Of a DNA stretch of 64,000 bases, positions 18,249-27,338 are shown piece after piece. A program made the position numbers and the translations under genes. Where the stretch lies: contig NZ_FQYR01000005.1 in NCBI RefSeq assembly GCF_900141815.1, forward strand, positions 248,001 through 312,000, written 5' to 3'. Origin of the DNA: Rubritalea squalenifaciens DSM 18772 (GTDB taxonomy: Bacteria; Verrucomicrobiota; Verrucomicrobiia; Verrucomicrobiales; Akkermansiaceae). The number at the start of each line of letters is the position of its first letter. Position 1 is the stretch's first letter. Below the pieces are notes generated by a model, which did no database searches, had not been told where the DNA came from, and saw only the letters and a list, made by a program, of their open reading frames with translations.

Positions 18249-21200
18249 CTAGATGGCCTTTTGCCAGTTCTGCGCAATGGACTTCAGCTGCTCCTGCTCA
18301 GGAGTGATGCACTCAGGACCGAAATAGGTGGTCTGAAGTTGCTTGATTTCCTGGTCCAGTTTGGCCTTTTGGTCTGCGTTAAGCTTCTGGCTTTCCCTGA
18401 TCTTATTCAGGTAGGAAAGCAGGGTAACAGGTGTTAGGTCGGATGGGAGAGCTATCACGTTGTGTTTGATTTGCTCTGGAGCGGGCTTGCGTGACTTGAC
18501 GAAGAAGAAGCCAAGTAGGGCCAAGATGGCAGCACCGGCGGAGTACAGCCAGATATTGACTGAGGCAGCTTCCGCTTTGTTTAGCTCTACGCTTTGTCCT
18601 ACCGCGAGCAGATCGACATCATCATAGCGCTGCCTGAGTAGACCATCTTCTTTCGCAAGAGGAAGGAGTGGTTCAGGGAAGCTGAAGCTGGCGGGGAGAG
18701 AGTCTCCAATAGGTTTGAGACTAATGACCCACTCGTGAGAAGAGATGGGGGCCAAGTCATCGGATTCCGCGTCGAGCTCTACGATTTGAAGTTCACGGTC
18801 TTCAATGTTAGAGACTTCAAAGCCCTCAAAGGATTGTTGAATCAGCTTATCCAGCGGCGGAATGATGCCGTGCCCCGTGGCTTTGACTTCCAGTAGTAGG
18901 TTGCCGTCCTTTTCGAGCTTACGCTCGTCAAGTACCATGGTGAGCTTGAGATCCCGGTGTGGGCGCTCGGTATCAGGTGCATTGGCGCTGATAGGGATGG
19001 CGGGAGAGGTGATCGGGAGTACGACGTAGCCTGAGGTGTCCAAGAAGTCGAGGTCGATTTTGAGCGGTGGGATGGTGTCCACTTGTGGACCCTTCGGCTT
19101 CAGAAGGATGTAGGCATAAGGCGTGACCGTCCAGCCTGGCTTGGAGTCAGAGCGTGACTGTACCTTGGAAGAATGGAAGGTGAGGGAGACGATCTCAAAG
19201 TTCTCAGCGAGCGCAGAGCGGACGGATTCTTCGAATTTGTCACGGTAGTCTTCAGGCGGTCTCCCATAGTTGTATCCACTACGCGTATTGCTCTGGTTGA
19301 CCAAGTAGCGCTGGAAACCGTTAGATTCCCTTTCGATCTCCTGAGTGTGCTTCAGGTTGATATACAAACCAAATGGCTTGTCTGCATCAATGTTGGTGCT
19401 GCCATCCACATAGGCGTCTAACTTCACCTCAGTCACCAGATCTTCGTAGTACTGGTAGAGCAAGTTGCCGTCTGAGAATTTCGGGTGGTCGCCGACAATG
19501 CTGATCGCAGCTTTGAGATAGCGGAACTTGAGATCAGGGGCGACACTGGCCAAGCTCTTGTTGAGAGCATCTGCGAACATAGCCATGTGGCGTTCGCCAG
19601 CAGCTTCATCTACAGCGGTGATGTAATCGAGAGCTTCCTTGATTTTTGCATACTCGCTAGGGATCGGCTGATGATGGTTTTTAAGCGCTTGTAAGATAGG
19701 GGATCCCAGAGCTCCAAAGAACCATTGCGTATATGGGGTGATGCTTTCATCGCTCGTTTTATCCAGAGGTAGCTTGGACGCGTACTTGGCTGCACCGGCG
19801 GCAAAGAGCTCCATGGCTTTTTGCTTGTTGATCGTGTGGCTTGAGTGGGAGCTGATACTGGAGAGGTAATTGGATTCCTCCTCCACCAGTGCGGCATGGT
19901 TTACCTGTAGCTTCCAATTGTCTGGGTACTTCTCCAGGCTAGATTCACAGAGCTGCTTGGCCATGGCGTAGCCTTTGATGATTTGCTGCTGCAGCTCTTT
20001 GTCCGTACGTTTGGTTTTGGCCTCAATCTGAAGTTTAGGGTCCGGCCATAGTCCAGCAAGATTGGTTCTCATCTGGCTGAGCAGGGAGTTAACGACCTCT
20101 GGATTCATAGTTTCCATGGGGCCAAACACGGCCTCCAGAGTCTCAAGTCTCCATACCTCCGCTGTTGAGTGAGCCGCCACAAATGCGGAGGCAAACTCAC
20201 GTTGGAATGTGTCACCCAGATTCAGTGAGGCTACTTTCTTGATGAGTTGAGCTAATTGCTTGAGGTTGCGCTCTTGCTTGGAGCGGGTGAGCGGGATGGC
20301 TTCAGCTTTTTGGTTCATCCCGTACATGTAGAAGTAGCTGGAGCGGTAGCGGTTGTTCTGGGTGTTGGGGTTGTGGTTTTCAGCCCATACGTTGATCATT
20401 TCTCGCACAAGCCCCTTCGCTTGATCGGGGCGGTACTGAGCAATTTTTTCCAGCAGAGGGAATGCCTTCTCTTCCTCTTTCACTTTGAGGTAGAGTTTGG
20501 AGGCATCCACTAGATAGTTCAGGCGAACTTCATCATCTACAAGGGAAAGCCACTTTTCAGATGGAGCAAAGGAGAGGAGATCGCCAGAGCGGATGGGGAG
20601 GACCTTGATGTGGTTCGTCTGAGAGCGCTGGCGAGACATGTAGAAAATATTTCCGTAGCTGTCTGCCTGCATCTCGGGTCTGAGACTGGTTGAGGTGTCG
20701 TAGCGATAAGAGTGTTCCGCTTCCTGGTTCCAATTGCGCAGGTAGAGAGTAAGTAGCTCTGACCATTCATTAGGAGAGACTTTGGTGTTCTCTAACAGCG
20801 TGTTGACGGCCGCAGATTGAATCTTCAATTGCTCGAGGCGGAAGTCCGCATCTCTATTCTCTCTGGTTTGGGATGAGAGAATGCCAACCGCGGATAGGAT
20901 TTCATACCCAACAGCGTCCGTGGTTGCGAAGGATTCCTTGAGCCATTTGCTGCTGGTGTCTTCCTGTAGATCAGGAAGCAGGGAGAGCGCACGGTAGAGT
21001 GCGCTGACTCTCTTGTCATAGGGAGCCTCTTTCTCAGAGAGTAGCAGGGTGGAAGTGCTCCAAGCCAAAGCGAGATGCTCTTTGCCTTTACGTGCTTGGT
21101 GCGCGGCTGTGTGGTATTGGGAAATAAGGTCGGTAGCTTTGAAGTTGTTGGACTTCTTAGCTTCATCGGGTGTTGGGAGGTAGCCAGCTACGTGATCTAG

Positions 21201-21968
21201 CAACCCCGCGGAGATTAAAAGCTCAGCGGTATTGAGAGCTGTTTCGGGAGTGGTTTTCCCAAGGGCCTTATTGCCTTTGTCTAGTTGTTCATAGAAGTCA
21301 GGAAGGAGCTCTGTGTCTCCACTGATGAGTCTAGCGAGTAACTTGATCGTGCCGGAGTCCAAGGCCTTGGGCGAGGCAGCAGCTAGAGGAAGGACTTCAT
21401 TTGCCGGGAAATACTGTGCTTGAGTATGGGGGCGAGCTCCGGTAGCCGATATCTCCGGGCTGGGTGTGACTTTGGCTGGTTGAGTCAGCTGTTGCAGGAC
21501 ATGGCTGTAGATTTGGCTGGCCTCGTTTTCAGGAAGGCTCGCTAGTGTCTTGGAAAAGCGCTCCCAGTTGCTCAGGGTGACATCCACGCGGATTTGTTTG
21601 AGGATTGCTTGGAAGCGTTCGGTTTGCTGGCGGGAAGGTAGCTTCTTGATTTCTTCCTCACTGAGCTCAGGGACAACTGTTGGCTTATGTTTTTCCGCGA
21701 GTCTGGTCTCGATGATACCCGAAGTCGAACGGTCAATCTGCAGCTGCCTGAGCAGCTTCATCTTGCCCTGTTGGGAAGCGTTGGATGGTGGTCTGCCAGC
21801 AGCTGCTTGTTGCTGCTGCATCATCATCTTGACTTCTTCAGGTGACAGAGCGCGAGTCTGGCCGTTACCAGGGCTTTGAATGATCTGGATCTGGGCAGGA
21901 CTATTCTGGGCCCAAGCTGGAAGAGCGCAGAGAGAGAGGCAGGTGAGGAAAAAGGTGTTTTTCTTCAT
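18249..21968 (-). CDS. Very large secreted, C-terminally membrane-anchored helical-repeat protein of the Bat operon
   Basis: 1239 residues. Signal peptide (cleavage near 'LPAWA-QNS'), then a Q-rich spacer with 'MMMQQQQAAA'. About residues 110-800 are alpha-helical and TPR-like, and about 800-1130 are beta-rich. One membrane helix ('WLYSAGAAILALLGFFFV') lies near residue 1145, with a cytoplasmic tail of about 85 residues ending in a predicted coiled coil. Bat operons usually end with BatD/BatE, which are also large, periplasmic and membrane-anchored; this may be their functional counterpart, but I see no clear BatD similarity. Last gene of the operon, 48 bp after the extended batC-like gene. 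Confidence 0.75.
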   Translation of the reverse strand: MKKNTFFLTCLSLCALPAWAQNSPAQIQIIQSPGNGQTRALSPEEVKMMMQQQQAAAGRPPSNASQQGKMKLLRQLQIDRSTSGIIETRLAEKHKPTVVPELSEEEIKKLPSRQQTERFQAILKQIRVDVTLSNWERFSKTLASLPENEASQIYSHVLQQLTQPAKVTPSPEISATGARPHTQAQYFPANEVLPLAAASPKALDSGTIKLLARLISGDTELLPDFYEQLDKGNKALGKTTPETALNTAELLISAGLLDHVAGYLPTPDEAKKSNNFKATDLISQYHTAAHQARKGKEHLALAWSTSTLLLSEKEAPYDKRVSALYRALSLLPDLQEDTSSKWLKESFATTDAVGYEILSAVGILSSQTRENRDADFRLEQLKIQSAAVNTLLENTKVSPNEWSELLTLYLRNWNQEAEHSYRYDTSTSLRPEMQADSYGNIFYMSRQRSQTNHIKVLPIRSGDLLSFAPSEKWLSLVDDEVRLNYLVDASKLYLKVKEEEKAFPLLEKIAQYRPDQAKGLVREMINVWAENHNPNTQNNRYRSSYFYMYGMNQKAEAIPLTRSKQERNLKQLAQLIKKVASLNLGDTFQREFASAFVAAHSTAEVWRLETLEAVFGPMETMNPEVVNSLLSQMRTNLAGLWPDPKLQIEAKTKRTDKELQQQIIKGYAMAKQLCESSLEKYPDNWKLQVNHAALVEEESNYLSSISSHSSHTINKQKAMELFAAGAAKYASKLPLDKTSDESITPYTQWFFGALGSPILQALKNHHQPIPSEYAKIKEALDYITAVDEAAGERHMAMFADALNKSLASVAPDLKFRYLKAAISIVGDHPKFSDGNLLYQYYEDLVTEVKLDAYVDGSTNIDADKPFGLYINLKHTQEIERESNGFQRYLVNQSNTRSGYNYGRPPEDYRDKFEESVRSALAENFEIVSLTFHSSKVQSRSDSKPGWTVTPYAYILLKPKGPQVDTIPPLKIDLDFLDTSGYVVLPITSPAIPISANAPDTERPHRDLKLTMVLDERKLEKDGNLLLEVKATGHGIIPPLDKLIQQSFEGFEVSNIEDRELQIVELDAESDDLAPISSHEWVISLKPIGDSLPASFSFPEPLLPLAKEDGLLRQRYDDVDLLAVGQSVELNKAEAASVNIWLYSAGAAILALLGFFFVKSRKPAPEQIKHNVIALPSDLTPVTLLSYLNKIRESQKLNADQKAKLDQEIKQLQTTYFGPECITPEQEQLKSIAQNWQKAI

Positions 21969-22016: not shown

Positions 22017-22715
22017 TTAGGAACCTGAGCCATCTGCCGGTGGAGCTTGTCCCGCTCCTCGTGAGTCTGTTGGCTTATTGCTAGGCTTGCCTGGTTTGTT
22101 GCTCGGACGACCGTTCGAGCTGCCGCAGCCCTCTCATTGTGAAGGGAGTGGGAGACCGTACAGTTCGCGTGGGGTAGCACGGGCAAGACGGATGCTGGCT
22201 TCCAGATCAAGTAGGTGCTTGTCTGCGGTAGAGGAGTTTTGAGCGAGTAGCTTGTACTCCTGACGGGCGGCTTCGATCTCTGGCTCCCAGTCGCTATCAG
22301 GGCGACCTTCTAGCTTCATGAGGTAAGTCATGTAATAGCGCGCATTGGCTAGGGAGGAGAGGGCATCTTCCTTGAGCTGCTCAGAGGCAGTAGGGTTGTC
22401 ATTGATTTCCTGGACGAGTGCTGCGAGGTCTGCCCTCGCTTCCGGAAGCTTGGCATCCATCATTTTCGCTTTAGCGATCTGTAGCTTGATTTGCTGAGCG
22501 GCCTCGGTTTCATCCTTGGGGAGCTTGGCTAAGGCATCGTTGAGCAGTTCAATCGCTTCGGACCAGTTTTCTTCTTCAAGTTGCTGATCGGATTGCTCTA
22601 GCAGGTCATCGACTTTATCCAGTGCCAGAAGCTTCTGGCCCGGCCCATAATGGTAGGCCACTCCCAGCAGTGGGAGGATCAGCCAGAGGGTGGCTATGGT
22701 GATTCTTTTCTTCAT
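22017..22715 (-). CDS. BatC-like TPR protein with predicted selenocysteine-containing C-terminal extension
   Basis: The frame opens at ATG 22715 with an N-terminal membrane anchor ('IATLWLILPLLGVAYHY', residues 7-23) and TPR-like helices (about 30-190). A TGA at 22136-22134 would end it at 193 residues. The same frame stays open for 38 more codons to TAA at 22019-22017, reading 'U-EGCGSSNGRPSNK' and then a Pro/Lys/Ser/Gly-rich tail. Residue 194 would be Sec in a U-x-x-C redox motif. A hairpin with a GGUC loop starts 13 nt after the TGA. Read-through also closes an otherwise odd 165-bp gap to 48 bp in a tightly packed operon. The 193-residue product is certain; the extension is inference. Confidence 0.6.
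22101..22120 (-). promoter_or_regulatory. Predicted bacterial SECIS hairpin after the TGA of the batC-like gene
   Basis: Read on the minus strand: GCUCG, A/C mismatch, A-U and C-G pairs, loop GGUC, then the 3' arm ending CGAGC. The loop starts 22 nt after the UGA. Position and the GGUC tetraloop match the E. coli fdhF SECIS, where the loop G and U contact SelB. Not tested by covariance. Confidence 0.55.
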
Positions 22716-22733: not shown

Positions 22734-23732
22734 TTAGGCTCCCTCCTGAGCTTGAGGGCCGGGTGAAAAACGAGCGGTAAAATAATGCATGATCATCGGT
22801 AGGAAGGCGAGAAGGAAGGTCGATACCCCAAGGGTGATCAGGGCATACTCGCGAATGGTAAGCTGCAACTTGTCTTCCTCGATTTTCAAGGTCCCCAAAC
22901 CTTTGAGTACGTCGGTAGGAACATGCGTGCTGTTGCCGTCGTGATAGGCGCCGCCAAGACGAGTGGCGATCTGTGAGAGTGTGCTGACGTCCTGTCTGGA
23001 CTGTGTGCCGTCAATGAAAGTGCCTTGTTTAGGATCGCCAACACCCAGTACGAGGGTGGAGCCAACGGAGGCCGGAAGTTTAGGCATGCCGCTCGCTGGT
23101 ACCGTATCGCCGTCTGAAGCGATGACGAGTGTCGCCGAGCCCGCTGGCCAGTCTTTGGCTATCTCAGCGACTTCTTGAATGCCGTCGAAGAGTCGGGTTT
23201 TGCCGGGAGGGAAGACGCTGGATAGAGGCAGGCCATCGAGGAAGTTCAGTATGACTTCGACATCGCGGCTTTCTTTGACGACGGGTTTGGCGCCGTTGTA
23301 CACAGCCACCATGCTGAAGTGAAGTTTGTCGTCTGTGGTACGTTGCAGAATCGATTGCAGGAGGGCTGAGGCGCGCTCAGTACGAGAAGTCTTAGAGCTG
23401 CTTTGACCTGCATCCTGGAGGCGCATGGAGGGGGAGACGTCCAAGAGAAGGACGAGATGTCTTCTCTCCACAGCAGGAACTTCTTCCACGACCTGATTGC
23501 GGTGAACCTTTGGTTTGCCAAGGAAAAGGGTGGCTGCAGCCCAGGCCATGGCTGCTAGAGCGAGAACTCTGAGGATGGGGACAATGTAGACGATGGCTGG
23601 AATGGAGGCGTCTGTGCCGAAGGCGAGGTGGCGTACCCGCATGACGCGGCGTGAGTGCACGAGTTCGGCGCCAGCGGTGAGGATGGCGGCTGCGATAGCA
23701 ATCAGTATGGCTGGTGAAAATGGCATTACCAA
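22734..23732 (-). CDS. BatB-like von Willebrand factor A membrane protein
   Basis: 332 residues. Two N-terminal membrane segments, then a VWA domain with the metal-ion-dependent adhesion site 'LLLDVSPSMRLQDAG' (D-x-S-x-S; here D-V-S-P-S) and the second Asp in 'VIASDGDTVPA', and a C-terminal membrane helix near residue 300. BatA/BatB proteins are found with MoxR ATPases and are thought to assemble complexes at the envelope. The start overlaps the batA-like gene by 7 bp. Confidence 0.88.
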   Translation of the reverse strand: MVMPFSPAILIAIAAAILTAGAELVHSRRVMRVRHLAFGTDASIPAIVYIVPILRVLALAAMAWAAATLFLGKPKVHRNQVVEEVPAVERRHLVLLLDVSPSMRLQDAGQSSSKTSRTERASALLQSILQRTTDDKLHFSMVAVYNGAKPVVKESRDVEVILNFLDGLPLSSVFPPGKTRLFDGIQEVAEIAKDWPAGSATLVIASDGDTVPASGMPKLPASVGSTLVLGVGDPKQGTFIDGTQSRQDVSTLSQIATRLGGAYHDGNSTHVPTDVLKGLGTLKIEEDKLQLTIREYALITLGVSTFLLAFLPMIMHYFTARFSPGPQAQEGA

Positions 23733-24643
23733 GGAGTGTAGCGGAGTCCGAAAAGGGTGAGAATATAGGTGCCGGCTACGGCAAACAGAGCGATCACGTA
23801 AGGCGTGTAGTGATCCACGGGATCAGGAGTCAGCCGCTTGAAAGGAGCTTTCTGCATCTGATCAATATGAGCAAAAACTTCTGTGAGGGCCTGAGGGTCG
23901 CCTGCGGTGAAGGTGCTACCTCCTGTAGCTTGAGCAATCATGGTCACCTCTGCCGGAGCTTCCCCTTGACCGATATGGATACCGTAGAGAGTGATGTTGT
24001 TGTCTTGCAGACTTTTGGCGATTTTCTGGTCGTTTCCGTTGCTAAGGTCGTAGCTATAACCATCAGAGATGAGGATGATCACTCGGTCTCCACCGTCAGA
24101 CTGTAGCAGGAAACGCTCAGACTGCTTGAGCGCGCTGCCAATCGCAGTGCCTCCGCGGAACCAGTTAGGAAGATTACTCGGGTGGAGGAAAGGAGGGGCA
24201 CAAGAGAATGAGGACGGGTCCGTGGTGAGTGGAACCCAGCGCAAGTTGTCATCACCGAAGACAATCAGTGAGAAGGCATCCCCTTTGCGGTGGGTGAGAA
24301 ATTCATTCAAGGAATCCATCGCTACTCCGTAGGCGTCTTTATTGCCAAACTTGGCAGTCATAGAGCCTGAGACGTCGAGGCAGAACTGGATGTTAGTCAG
24401 TTCCCGCTCAGACTTGGGGCGCTCAAAGCGGCGTGGACCGGCAAGGATGACCACCACCAGGGCGAGGATGACTGCTGGCAGACTGTTGGCGAGATTCAGA
24501 AGCCGTGATGTCCAGCGAGCACTTGGAGTATCCTTGTGGTCGAATGGTAAGGCCAGGGCGCGTGTGTGCTTTCTCCACGTGTAGATGACGAGAAGCACAG
24601 GAATGATGAGGGCGATGAGAACCGTTGGGTGTGCGAAAGACAT
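23726..24643 (-). CDS. BatA-like von Willebrand factor A membrane protein
   Basis: 305 residues. Membrane segments at about 8-22 and 55-72, VWA domain with MIDAS 'FCLDVSGSMTAKF' (DxSxS), the Thr/Asp sites 'RGGTAIGSAL' and 'ILISDGYS', and a final membrane helix around 283-300. It is followed by the overlapping batB-like gene, so the two VWA proteins are probably made in equal amounts and face the periplasm together. Confidence 0.9.
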   Translation of the reverse strand: MSFAHPTVLIALIIPVLLVIYTWRKHTRALALPFDHKDTPSARWTSRLLNLANSLPAVILALVVVILAGPRRFERPKSERELTNIQFCLDVSGSMTAKFGNKDAYGVAMDSLNEFLTHRKGDAFSLIVFGDDNLRWVPLTTDPSSFSCAPPFLHPSNLPNWFRGGTAIGSALKQSERFLLQSDGGDRVIILISDGYSYDLSNGNDQKIAKSLQDNNITLYGIHIGQGEAPAEVTMIAQATGGSTFTAGDPQALTEVFAHIDQMQKAPFKRLTPDPVDHYTPYVIALFAVAGTYILTLFGLRYTPW

Positions 24644-24650
24644 TAGGTGA

Positions 24651-25463
24651 TTACTGATTCTCCTTCTTGAAAGTGGTGAGTAGAGGCTCGATCTCCTTCT
24701 GGGTCACGGAGGCTGATGGGGCATGCAGCCAGTGTTCGATCTTGAGGACGAGTGGTGAGGCCTCTGTATGGGTGCGAAGCTGAGTGATTGCATCAGCCGT
24801 TGGCATGAACTCGAGCCCTGGCACTTGTTTCTTCCAGTGACCAATGATGAGGCGCTCCAGTTCAGCTTGCTGATTATGGCTTAGGTCACCATGAGCAGTG
24901 GCGAGAACGAGTTCTTGGATTTTCTCATAGGTGCTCAGTTTGATTTCTTCAGCTCCAGATGCGTCTTTGTTCTTCTTACGGTAGAAAAGAATCAGCAGAA
25001 AAATGAGAATCCAGACTGAAGCCAGAGTCCAAAGCATCACCCGGTAGTTGCTAAGGTTGGAGGGCGTGGAGTAGCTTAGCTTCTGTGGCTTGGGGAGAGT
25101 GTCTGCCGGGTGTTGAACGGTGACCTCAAGTGCCGTGTCCAGCTCGCTGACAGGCTCTTTGCTGTCGGCATAATGTAGGTACTTGCTTAGCTGGTGCGTG
25201 CCAGGATCTAGTCCGTACACCTCCATGTCATAGCGGAAGCCTTCAGAGGCAGGTTTGATCTCTAGGATGCGGATCACCAATGAAGAAGAAAGGTTCTTGC
25301 GTGGAATCGGCTCTACCTGACTGCCTGGAATGTAGACGTCCGTTACTTTGACTGGCATCCCTAGAGGGCTGCTTTTATCCTCAGCGTGGATATGCTGCAT
25401 GGGCAGCAAAGCTAGGAGCGCTGGTAGCAGGAGGAATAGGTAGATGTGCTTGAATAGTCTCAT
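24651..25463 (-). CDS. Membrane protein of the MoxR/Bat operon, function unknown (DUF4381-like position)
   Basis: 270 residues. A signal peptide (to about residue 27), a beta-rich periplasmic part of about 130 residues, a single membrane helix 'VMLWTLASVWILIFLLILFY' (about 145-165) and a helical cytoplasmic C-terminus of about 100 residues. In Bat operons this slot, between DUF58 and BatA, is commonly held by such a one-helix protein. Nine bp after the DUF58 gene. Confidence 0.75.
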   Translation of the reverse strand: MRLFKHIYLFLLLPALLALLPMQHIHAEDKSSPLGMPVKVTDVYIPGSQVEPIPRKNLSSSLVIRILEIKPASEGFRYDMEVYGLDPGTHQLSKYLHYADSKEPVSELDTALEVTVQHPADTLPKPQKLSYSTPSNLSNYRVMLWTLASVWILIFLLILFYRKKNKDASGAEEIKLSTYEKIQELVLATAHGDLSHNQQAELERLIIGHWKKQVPGLEFMPTADAITQLRTHTEASPLVLKIEHWLHAPSASVTQKEIEPLLTTFKKENQ

Positions 25464-25472
25464 CGGGTTTAT

Positions 25473-26321
25473 CTAGTGACCTAACAGATGGCGTGACTGG
25501 AGGAAGAGCCTCAGGCGGGCGAGAATGGGTTTATTCGTGTAAATCGGTAAGTGATCCACGGCAGCTTTCTTGAGAGCGGTGGATATTTCCTCCAAGTCTG
25601 AGAACTCTTTTTTGGCTGAGATGGTAAAGCTGTGCCCGGATTCCACTTCCTTACCGCGGATGAATCCAGCGCCGCTCAGGTTGTCTTCGGCCGGATCGCG
25701 CAAAATAAGACCGATCACATCGTGTTTCTGATTGAGCCGCTTGATGGCTCGCATTGCTTCAGAGTCGTGAAAATCCGAGATGACGAAAATCAAGGTGTTG
25801 TCTCCCAGCGTGGGGCTGAGTGAGAGAAGTTTTTGACCGAGATGGGTGCTCTCGTGGAAATCATAGTGCCTAAGCTCGTGCAGCCAGCGCATCACGGTAT
25901 CTCTGGAGAGTGATGGCTTGATATTCAAGTCTCGGGATCCGGCTCCCATCACGCCGACAGGAGAAACCTGATCCAAGCAGGTGAGCGCCAATCCTCCTGC
26001 TAGCTGGACTGCCAGCTGGTACTTGGAAATCGGGGTCGAGGACAGTGTCATGGAGGACGAGGTGTCCACGATGAACCAGACTGGTAGGCACTTTGGGGTC
26101 TCGTATTCTTTGACGTGAACCACTCCAGTGCGTGCACTGATTCGCCAGTCGATGGTTTTGACCGGGTCTCCCTGAATATAAGGACGTGACTGCACGTACT
26201 CAATGCCCTGACCTAACATTTGTGAGCGATCCGTCCCATAGGAAAGCGAGTCCGCCAGTCGCTTGACGGCGATGAAGAACTGGCGGGAGTCCAGAGGGTC
26301 TGAATGTTCTAACAGAGGCAT
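25473..26321 (-). CDS. DUF58 domain protein
   Basis: 282 residues. The DUF58 signature region reads 'GTDRSQMLGQGIEYVQSRPYIQGDPVKTIDWRISARTG' in outline, with 'R.Y..GD....IDW..sART', followed by a VWA-like part: 'FIVDTSSSM' and 'FVISDFHDSEAM'. DUF58 proteins accompany MoxR ATPases and are presumed to be their client or partner. It lies 33 bp after the moxR-like gene. Confidence 0.9.
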   Translation of the reverse strand: MPLLEHSDPLDSRQFFIAVKRLADSLSYGTDRSQMLGQGIEYVQSRPYIQGDPVKTIDWRISARTGVVHVKEYETPKCLPVWFIVDTSSSMTLSSTPISKYQLAVQLAGGLALTCLDQVSPVGVMGAGSRDLNIKPSLSRDTVMRWLHELRHYDFHESTHLGQKLLSLSPTLGDNTLIFVISDFHDSEAMRAIKRLNQKHDVIGLILRDPAEDNLSGAGFIRGKEVESGHSFTISAKKEFSDLEEISTALKKAAVDHLPIYTNKPILARLRLFLQSRHLLGH

Positions 26322-26354: not shown

Positions 26355-27338
26355 TTAGGAAATGGATTCCTCGATGATTTCCTGAAGGACACCGTGTGGT
26401 GTCTTGCCTTCAGCTAGAGCCTCGTAGTTCAAGCGGATACGGTGCAGGCAGACATCGTCAGCAAGCGCGAAAAGGTCTTCTGGGATCACGTAGTCACGAG
26501 CATGAATGAGGGCGCGTGCGCGGGATGCTTTCAATAGAGAAATACCAGCACGTGGGGAGCAGCCGACTTCAAGATCTTTGTGATGGCGAGTACGCTCGAT
26601 GATGTTGACCGTGTGCTTGAGGAAGACATCACTGACGTGCACGTTGTAGACGGCTTCCATGGCTTTGACCAAATCATCGGAGGAGCCGACGGTGTCATCG
26701 GTGATCATGTCGAACTCGGAGCGAGCTACGGCGCCACTACCTTCACGTTTGACGCCGAGCTTGAGGTTACGGCGGAGGATTTCCTCCTCGTCCTCTGGTG
26801 TCGGGTAAGACAGGCGGTGACAGAGCATGAAGCGGTCAAGCTGGGCTTCGGGCAGTTCGAAAGTACCTGATTGCTCAATCGGGTTCTGAGTCGCAATGAC
26901 GAGGAATGGGGTCGGAAGAGCAAAGGATTGGTTGCCGAGAGTCACCTTGCGTTCCTGCATGGCTTCCAGCAGGGCGCCCTGCACTTTTGGGGCTGCACGG
27001 TTGATCTCATCCGCCAGCAGCAGGTTGGTGAAGATCGGGCCTTTGTGAGTACGGAAGCTTGAGGTCTTTTCATCGAAGATCTCCGTTCCAAGAATATCTG
27101 AGGGAAGAAGGTCGATCGTGAACTGGACGCGGCGGAAATCGAGGTGCAGCGACTGGGAAATCGTGTTTACCAGAAGAGTTTTGGCCAGTCCGGGCATGCC
27201 CTCGAGGAGAAGGTGACCTGATGTCAGTAGGGCGATCAAGGTGCGCTCCACTACAGTATCTTGGCCGACGATGATTTGTCCCACGCGATTGCGGATGTTA
27301 TCAAGATAAGCGGCGGTGGAGTCGATATTGGTGGTCAT
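26355..27338 (-). CDS. MoxR-family AAA+ ATPase
   Basis: 327 residues. Walker A 'GMPGLAKT', Walker B 'LLADEINRA', the MoxR helix-2 insert 'LEAMQERKVTLG', sensor 1 'VIATQNPIEQSGTF', 'LPEAQLDRFM' arginine-finger region and a lid domain with 'GCSPRAGISLLKASRARA'. MoxR ATPases act as chaperones that mature or load metal cofactors onto partner proteins, often with VWA proteins as adaptors. First gene of the seven-gene leftward operon. Confidence 0.95.
   Translation of the reverse strand: MTTNIDSTAAYLDNIRNRVGQIIVGQDTVVERTLIALLTSGHLLLEGMPGLAKTLLVNTISQSLHLDFRRVQFTIDLLPSDILGTEIFDEKTSSFRTHKGPIFTNLLLADEINRAAPKVQGALLEAMQERKVTLGNQSFALPTPFLVIATQNPIEQSGTFELPEAQLDRFMLCHRLSYPTPEDEEEILRRNLKLGVKREGSGAVARSEFDMITDDTVGSSDDLVKAMEAVYNVHVSDVFLKHTVNIIERTRHHKDLEVGCSPRAGISLLKASRARALIHARDYVIPEDLFALADDVCLHRIRLNYEALAEGKTPHGVLQEIIEESIS

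Follow-up and report, generated by a model that had tools for sequence, protein, structure and literature searches.

The batC-like gene of a Bat operon in Rubritalea squalenifaciens very probably encodes a selenoprotein whose C-terminal tail belongs to the protein. The in-frame UGA at codon 194 is, with even greater confidence, predicted to be read as selenocysteine (Sec) by tRNA-Sec and SelB via a downstream hairpin with a GGU loop. The conserved tail, the hairpin, the codon pattern at the site, and the Sec machinery together argue that BatC is a selenoprotein whose C-terminal selenothiol arm is disordered and probably periplasmic. The features of the gene are as follows, in positions of the whole 64-kb stretch that was analysed (the window):

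22017 to 22715, minus strand: putative batC-like selenoprotein gene, 232 residues, predicted Sec at residue 194
22715-22134, minus strand: open reading frame from the ATG up to the TGA, 193 amino acids
22134 to 22136, minus strand: in-frame TGA, predicted to be read as Sec194; relatives have TGA or TGC/TGT in the same column
22125 to 22127, minus strand: TGC for Cys197, the predicted partner of Sec in the U-E-G-C pair
22101 to 22120, minus strand: SECIS-type hairpin GCUCGAAC-GGUC-GUCCGAGC (in full GCUCGAACGGUCGUCCGAGC), with the loop GGUC at 22112-22109
22017 to 22133, minus strand: C-terminal tail EGCGSSNGRPSNKPGKPSNKPTDSRGAGQAPPADGSGS and the TAA stop (22019-22017), 38 codons past the TGA

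The first-pass annotation had pointed to 38 open codons past the TGA, beginning with Glu-Gly-Cys-Gly, and to an odd intergenic gap. Both were borne out when the frame was read to the TAA. Up to the next ATG (21968), the gap is 165 bp if counted from the TGA and 48 bp if counted from the TAA, and the remaining junctions of the operon are an overlap and gaps of 7, 9, 18, and 33 bp. The product is predicted to consist of an N-terminal membrane helix, a TPR-like helical domain, and the disordered GAGQAPPADGSGS tail. Further long frames interrupted by a TGA occur in the window. At position 2624 on its minus strand, a TGA lies between long open frames (280 and 143 codons); these are probably two adjacent genes in the same frame.

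A first search found 14 relatives in Verrucomicrobiales and Planctomycetota, 11 of which have a TGA at exactly this codon and 3 a Cys codon. Profile searches then covered 387 genomes from the phylum, 260 from the family, and 392 from Planctomycetota, and yielded 107 genomes for analysis. The Sec site is occupied by TGA in 52 of them, by a Cys codon followed by TGA one codon later in 12, by TGC or TGT in 25, and by a codon for Gly, Ser, or Val in 18 divergent cases. A comparison of orthologous Bat operons had been proposed earlier, and it revealed TGA or TGC/TGT at the site with a conserved Gly-Cys downstream. The pattern that had been named as speaking against Sec, a TAA or TAG at the site with no Gly-Cys after it, is absent, as neither codon occurs there in any of the 107 genomes. 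The 12 genomes with the shifted TGA form a subclade of Planctomycetota that has an adjacent Cys-Sec (PGG-C-U-QGSGLL) in place of UxxC (L107-L113, L115-L119).

In the TGA forms, the tail is 35-45 residues in length, ends in Gly-Ser in 50 of the 52 sequences, and contains a D-x-R-x-[AGS] motif in 46 of the 52. Over all pairs, the tail has a pN of 0.34 versus a pS of 0.69, which means purifying selection; thus, the tail appears to be translated and constrained. The TGA lies inside a conserved coding region with Cys orthologues at the same position, and the TGA, the tail, and the GGU hairpin recur together across two phyla. Two kinds of more distant sequences were also seen. Divergent BatC relatives (L036-L040, L130-L141) in genomes lacking selB have a Gly-rich tail ending in GSGS with no thiol at the site, and one locus (L142, G587:C164) is a second, more distant batC paralogue that adjoins a batB-like gene and has no Sec tail.

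The hairpin noted earlier was also found at the right distance, with its GGUC occupying +25 to +28 relative to the first nucleotide of the UGA. Its folding energy as a single sequence is not unusual (z 0.33) and thus was not used as evidence. Instead, hairpins were scored across the family by requiring a GGU loop and a stem of at least 5 bp under a strict rule of four loop nucleotides. Such a hairpin is present in 46 of 48 distinct TGA forms and in none of the 25 Cys forms or the 16 other forms, and 3.4 +/- 1.7 hairpins are expected from synonymous-codon shuffles. The GGU is mostly at +22 or +25 in the TGA forms. Among 32 distinct stems, 86% of the cells are paired versus 57% after shuffling, and two-sided stem changes number 64 versus 24 +/- 3.6 in the shuffles, although these covariation figures are inflated because the hairpin was picked in each sequence by best pairing. 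This does not bias the controls with synonymous shuffles and Cys forms, for which the hairpin was picked in the same way. In the Cys-Sec forms, the hairpin differs slightly, has a shorter loop (CUCG-GUU-CGAG), and fails the strict rule. In summary, the downstream hairpin is conserved, covarying, and missing in Cys forms. The explanation that the TGA is an ordinary stop followed by a non-coding frame has practically no probability left and is refuted by the comparative data on orthologues: 38 open codons may occur by chance and a single hairpin energy is unremarkable, but the tail is under selection in two phyla, and the Cys-codon orthologues read straight through a site that never carries TAA or TAG.

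The host genome (4.3 Mb, 97% complete, with relatives in Akkermansiaceae/Verrucomicrobiales) encodes tRNA-Sec with the anticodon UCA, selA, selB, and selD. The selD gene has its own in-frame TGA in the catalytic loop, CGG-U-ASKL (L027 around 1530, G000:C3:915205). A formate dehydrogenase with a TGA is present in several relatives, and no match to a TGA-containing formate dehydrogenase was found in the host genome. A selB above the cut-off was found in 61 of the 64 genomes with a TGA, and the remaining three, which are drafts (one of them 65% complete), have selA. Conversely, selB is missing in 39 of the 43 genomes without the TGA; the other four, which have selA as well, make up a divergent subclade of Cys forms. 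On a tree built without the tail, two Akkermansiaceae genera form a Cys clade that is nested next to Sec clades, as would be expected if Sec and Cys were exchanged upon loss of Sec decoding. The tree has four Sec/Cys changes. Thus, the association with selB rests on few independent events and is support rather than a powered test; in a test of independent pairs on the tree, about two pairs were informative, all in the expected direction and with no significance.

Might the UGA be decoded as an amino acid other than Sec, through leaky or programmed read-through or a reassigned UGA? This is very improbable. TGA is a normal stop codon in the host, where it ends 8 of the 34 long frames of the 64-kb window, and it even serves as the gene's own terminator in 22 of the 52 TGA-form batC genes. 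Moreover, the TGA form occurs only alongside selA or selB, the residue aligned with it elsewhere is Cys, and the SECIS-type hairpin is confined to the TGA forms.

The Sec residue lies outside the folded part of the protein. AlphaFold2 predicts a TPR-like domain of helices with confidence up to about residue 186 and disorder in the tail beyond it. By sequence and structure comparison, a thioredoxin-like fold is absent around the UxxC motif. The closest solved folds are BamD and TPR adaptors. This likeness is one of fold only: weak sequence matches to YfiO/BamD lie far below the family cut-offs, and the batC product has no visible lipoprotein box, in contrast to BamD. The hydrophobic helix at the N-terminus is preceded by a lysine/arginine start, which suggests that the protein is anchored in the membrane with its tail in the periplasm. 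Since the folded domain ends before Sec194, a product truncated at the UGA should be stable. This raises the idea of a selenium-dependent switch, in which the UGA gives rise to both an extended product and an intact, truncated TPR protein, and read-through would in addition govern the coupling to the downstream gene (165 versus 48 nt). The gap lengths would fit, and the idea is compatible with Sec insertion at codon 194. However, it is rather improbable, since the Cys forms always make the tail and truncation may reflect mere inefficiency of decoding.

The kept residues of the tail are informative about its chemistry. A single Sec together with a single Cys is found in 45 of the 52 TGA tails and in all 12 Cys-Sec forms. 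In five TGA tails, the Cys is gone and a second Sec has appeared; of the last two, one combines two Sec with a Cys and the other has a lone Sec. The Cys forms mostly carry three to five Cys residues in the tail, arranged as CxCKSGKC or CKCKGCCNGVC. Where a tail has two TGA codons in frame (UQGCU, UQGU, UQRTU, and USGNGTU; L066, L124, L020, L097-L099), the GGU hairpin lies 22-25 nt past the second TGA, and thus two Sec residues may be inserted a few residues apart. Some lineages have no thiol at the site, which indicates that the arm is not required for every function of the family.

It was considered whether the tail of such a selenoprotein is a ligand arm or chaperone for soft metals (Cu, Zn, or Hg) rather than a redox arm. 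The Cys arrangements of the Cys forms could bind metal, and the operon proteins offer no widely conserved partner Cys (positions 148 and 175 of BatA are partly conserved). On the other hand, nearly every Sec form has just two ligands, as U-x-x-C, and outside catalytic metal centres Sec seldom serves as a structural ligand for a metal. A metal arm is therefore unlikely, if worth keeping in mind. The kept pair points to a selenenylsulfide or diselenide redox couple, with a metal site less likely. U-x-x-C is the commonest redox motif among selenoproteins (table in PMC13188914).

The neighbouring genes are as follows:

22734 to 23732, minus strand: batB-like VWA membrane protein
23726 to 24643, minus strand: batA-like VWA membrane protein
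24651 to 25463, minus strand: membrane protein of 270 amino acids with no family match, conserved in the operon
25473 to 26321, minus strand: DUF58 protein
26355 to 27338, minus strand: MoxR-type AAA ATPase
18249 to 21968, minus strand: protein of 1239 amino acids in the batD position, with, by eye, a putative signal sequence and C-terminal membrane helix

The BatC-like label of the first-pass annotation holds by operon position and TPR-like fold, as a TPR-like protein directly follows the BatA/BatB VWA genes in a MoxR-DUF58-VWA operon, whereas no family model matched the product. Similarly, the 1239-aa and 270-aa proteins gave no match to family models, including the BatD (oxygen tolerance) model in the case of the 1239-aa protein, which is called batD by position only. 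As in known Bat operons and MoxR-VWA systems, MoxR, DUF58, two VWA membrane proteins, a TPR-like protein, and a large downstream protein occur in the same order. The differences are the selenothiol or Cys-rich tail of BatC, a feature not known to have been described for Bat proteins, and the downstream protein that matches no BatD model. The order BatA-BatB-BatC-large protein is kept in both phyla, in Sec and Cys forms alike. In one genus and at a few further loci (L058, L062-L064, L067-L069, L071-L072, L017, L018, and L022), batC and the large gene are paired with no adjacent batA or batB. Thus, the large protein seems to be the closest genetic partner of batC.

How might the arm work? BatC would be a membrane-anchored TPR-like protein within the MoxR/VWA Bat complex, and its C-terminus would form a flexible arm with a Sec/Cys pair, which would be U-x-x-C here and C-U, U-x-x-U, or three to five Cys in other lineages. 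It is reasonably probable that this arm lies in the periplasm, can form a selenenylsulfide reversibly, and is the redox element of the Bat complex together with the large protein in the batD position. It may act either in the reduction of oxidised envelope proteins or in the sensing of oxidants. The earlier suggestion that a selenothiol tail gives the Bat operon a redox role is plausible on this reading of the sequences. The aerotolerance name, from Bacteroides, is more than 25 years old, and the link to oxidative stress is disputed. According to the account of Tang and co-workers cited in PMC3557215, reducing agents partly rescued the first bat mutant, and it was proposed that the Bat proteins are a source of reducing power in the periplasm. 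In contrast, Leptospira bat mutants had no oxidative-stress defect, and a role in oxidative stress was not supported (PMC3557215).

The predicted decoding follows that of E. coli FdhF, which is decoded by SelB with a SECIS inside the gene. Shared with that type are the in-frame UGA, a hairpin whose apical loop carries GGU about 22-25 nt downstream, SelA, SelB, SelD, and tRNA-Sec in the genome, and Cys orthologues. Unlike FdhF, the batC product is a TPR-like protein of a Bat operon and would carry Sec in a disordered C-terminal arm. Mammalian thioredoxin reductase has a C-terminal Gly-Cys-Sec-Gly arm. A Sec/Cys pair on a flexible C-terminal arm is thus common to both, and some Planctomycetota BatC proteins even have the adjacent Cys-Sec, but BatC lacks the flavoprotein domain, differs in fold, uses a bacterial SECIS, and is predicted to be membrane anchored.

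The family is absent from the 119 prokaryotic selenoprotein families in a review of May 2026 (PMC13188914), none of which is a TPR, Bat, or VWA-operon family, and the NCBIfam selenoprotein models gave no match to the batC product. No relevant paper linking selenoproteins to BatC, or to tetratricopeptide proteins and SECIS elements, emerged from the literature searched. An earlier mention may exist in Supplementary Table S9 of PMC4807772 (Porphyra Planctomycetes genomes), which lists selenoprotein candidates. As judged from the sequence comparisons, this is a previously unlisted selenoprotein family common to Verrucomicrobiota and Planctomycetota. Since inventories and annotation pipelines miss it, public entries for batC are likely truncated at the UGA.

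A Sec/Cys pair on one subunit provides a concrete, testable redox site for the Bat system. The versions that exist in nature (Sec, Cys-Sec, Sec-Sec, multi-Cys, and thiol-less) constitute a ready experiment on what a protein gains from selenium. A bolder and tentative idea is that the Bat MoxR-VWA envelope complex of the Verrucomicrobiota/Planctomycetota lineage has a selenium-dependent redox arm as its operating element, and that the efficiency of UGA recoding, and so the selenium supply, would decide whether BatC has its arm. If this is true, the Bat complex would be a selenium- and oxidant-responsive machine of the cell envelope.
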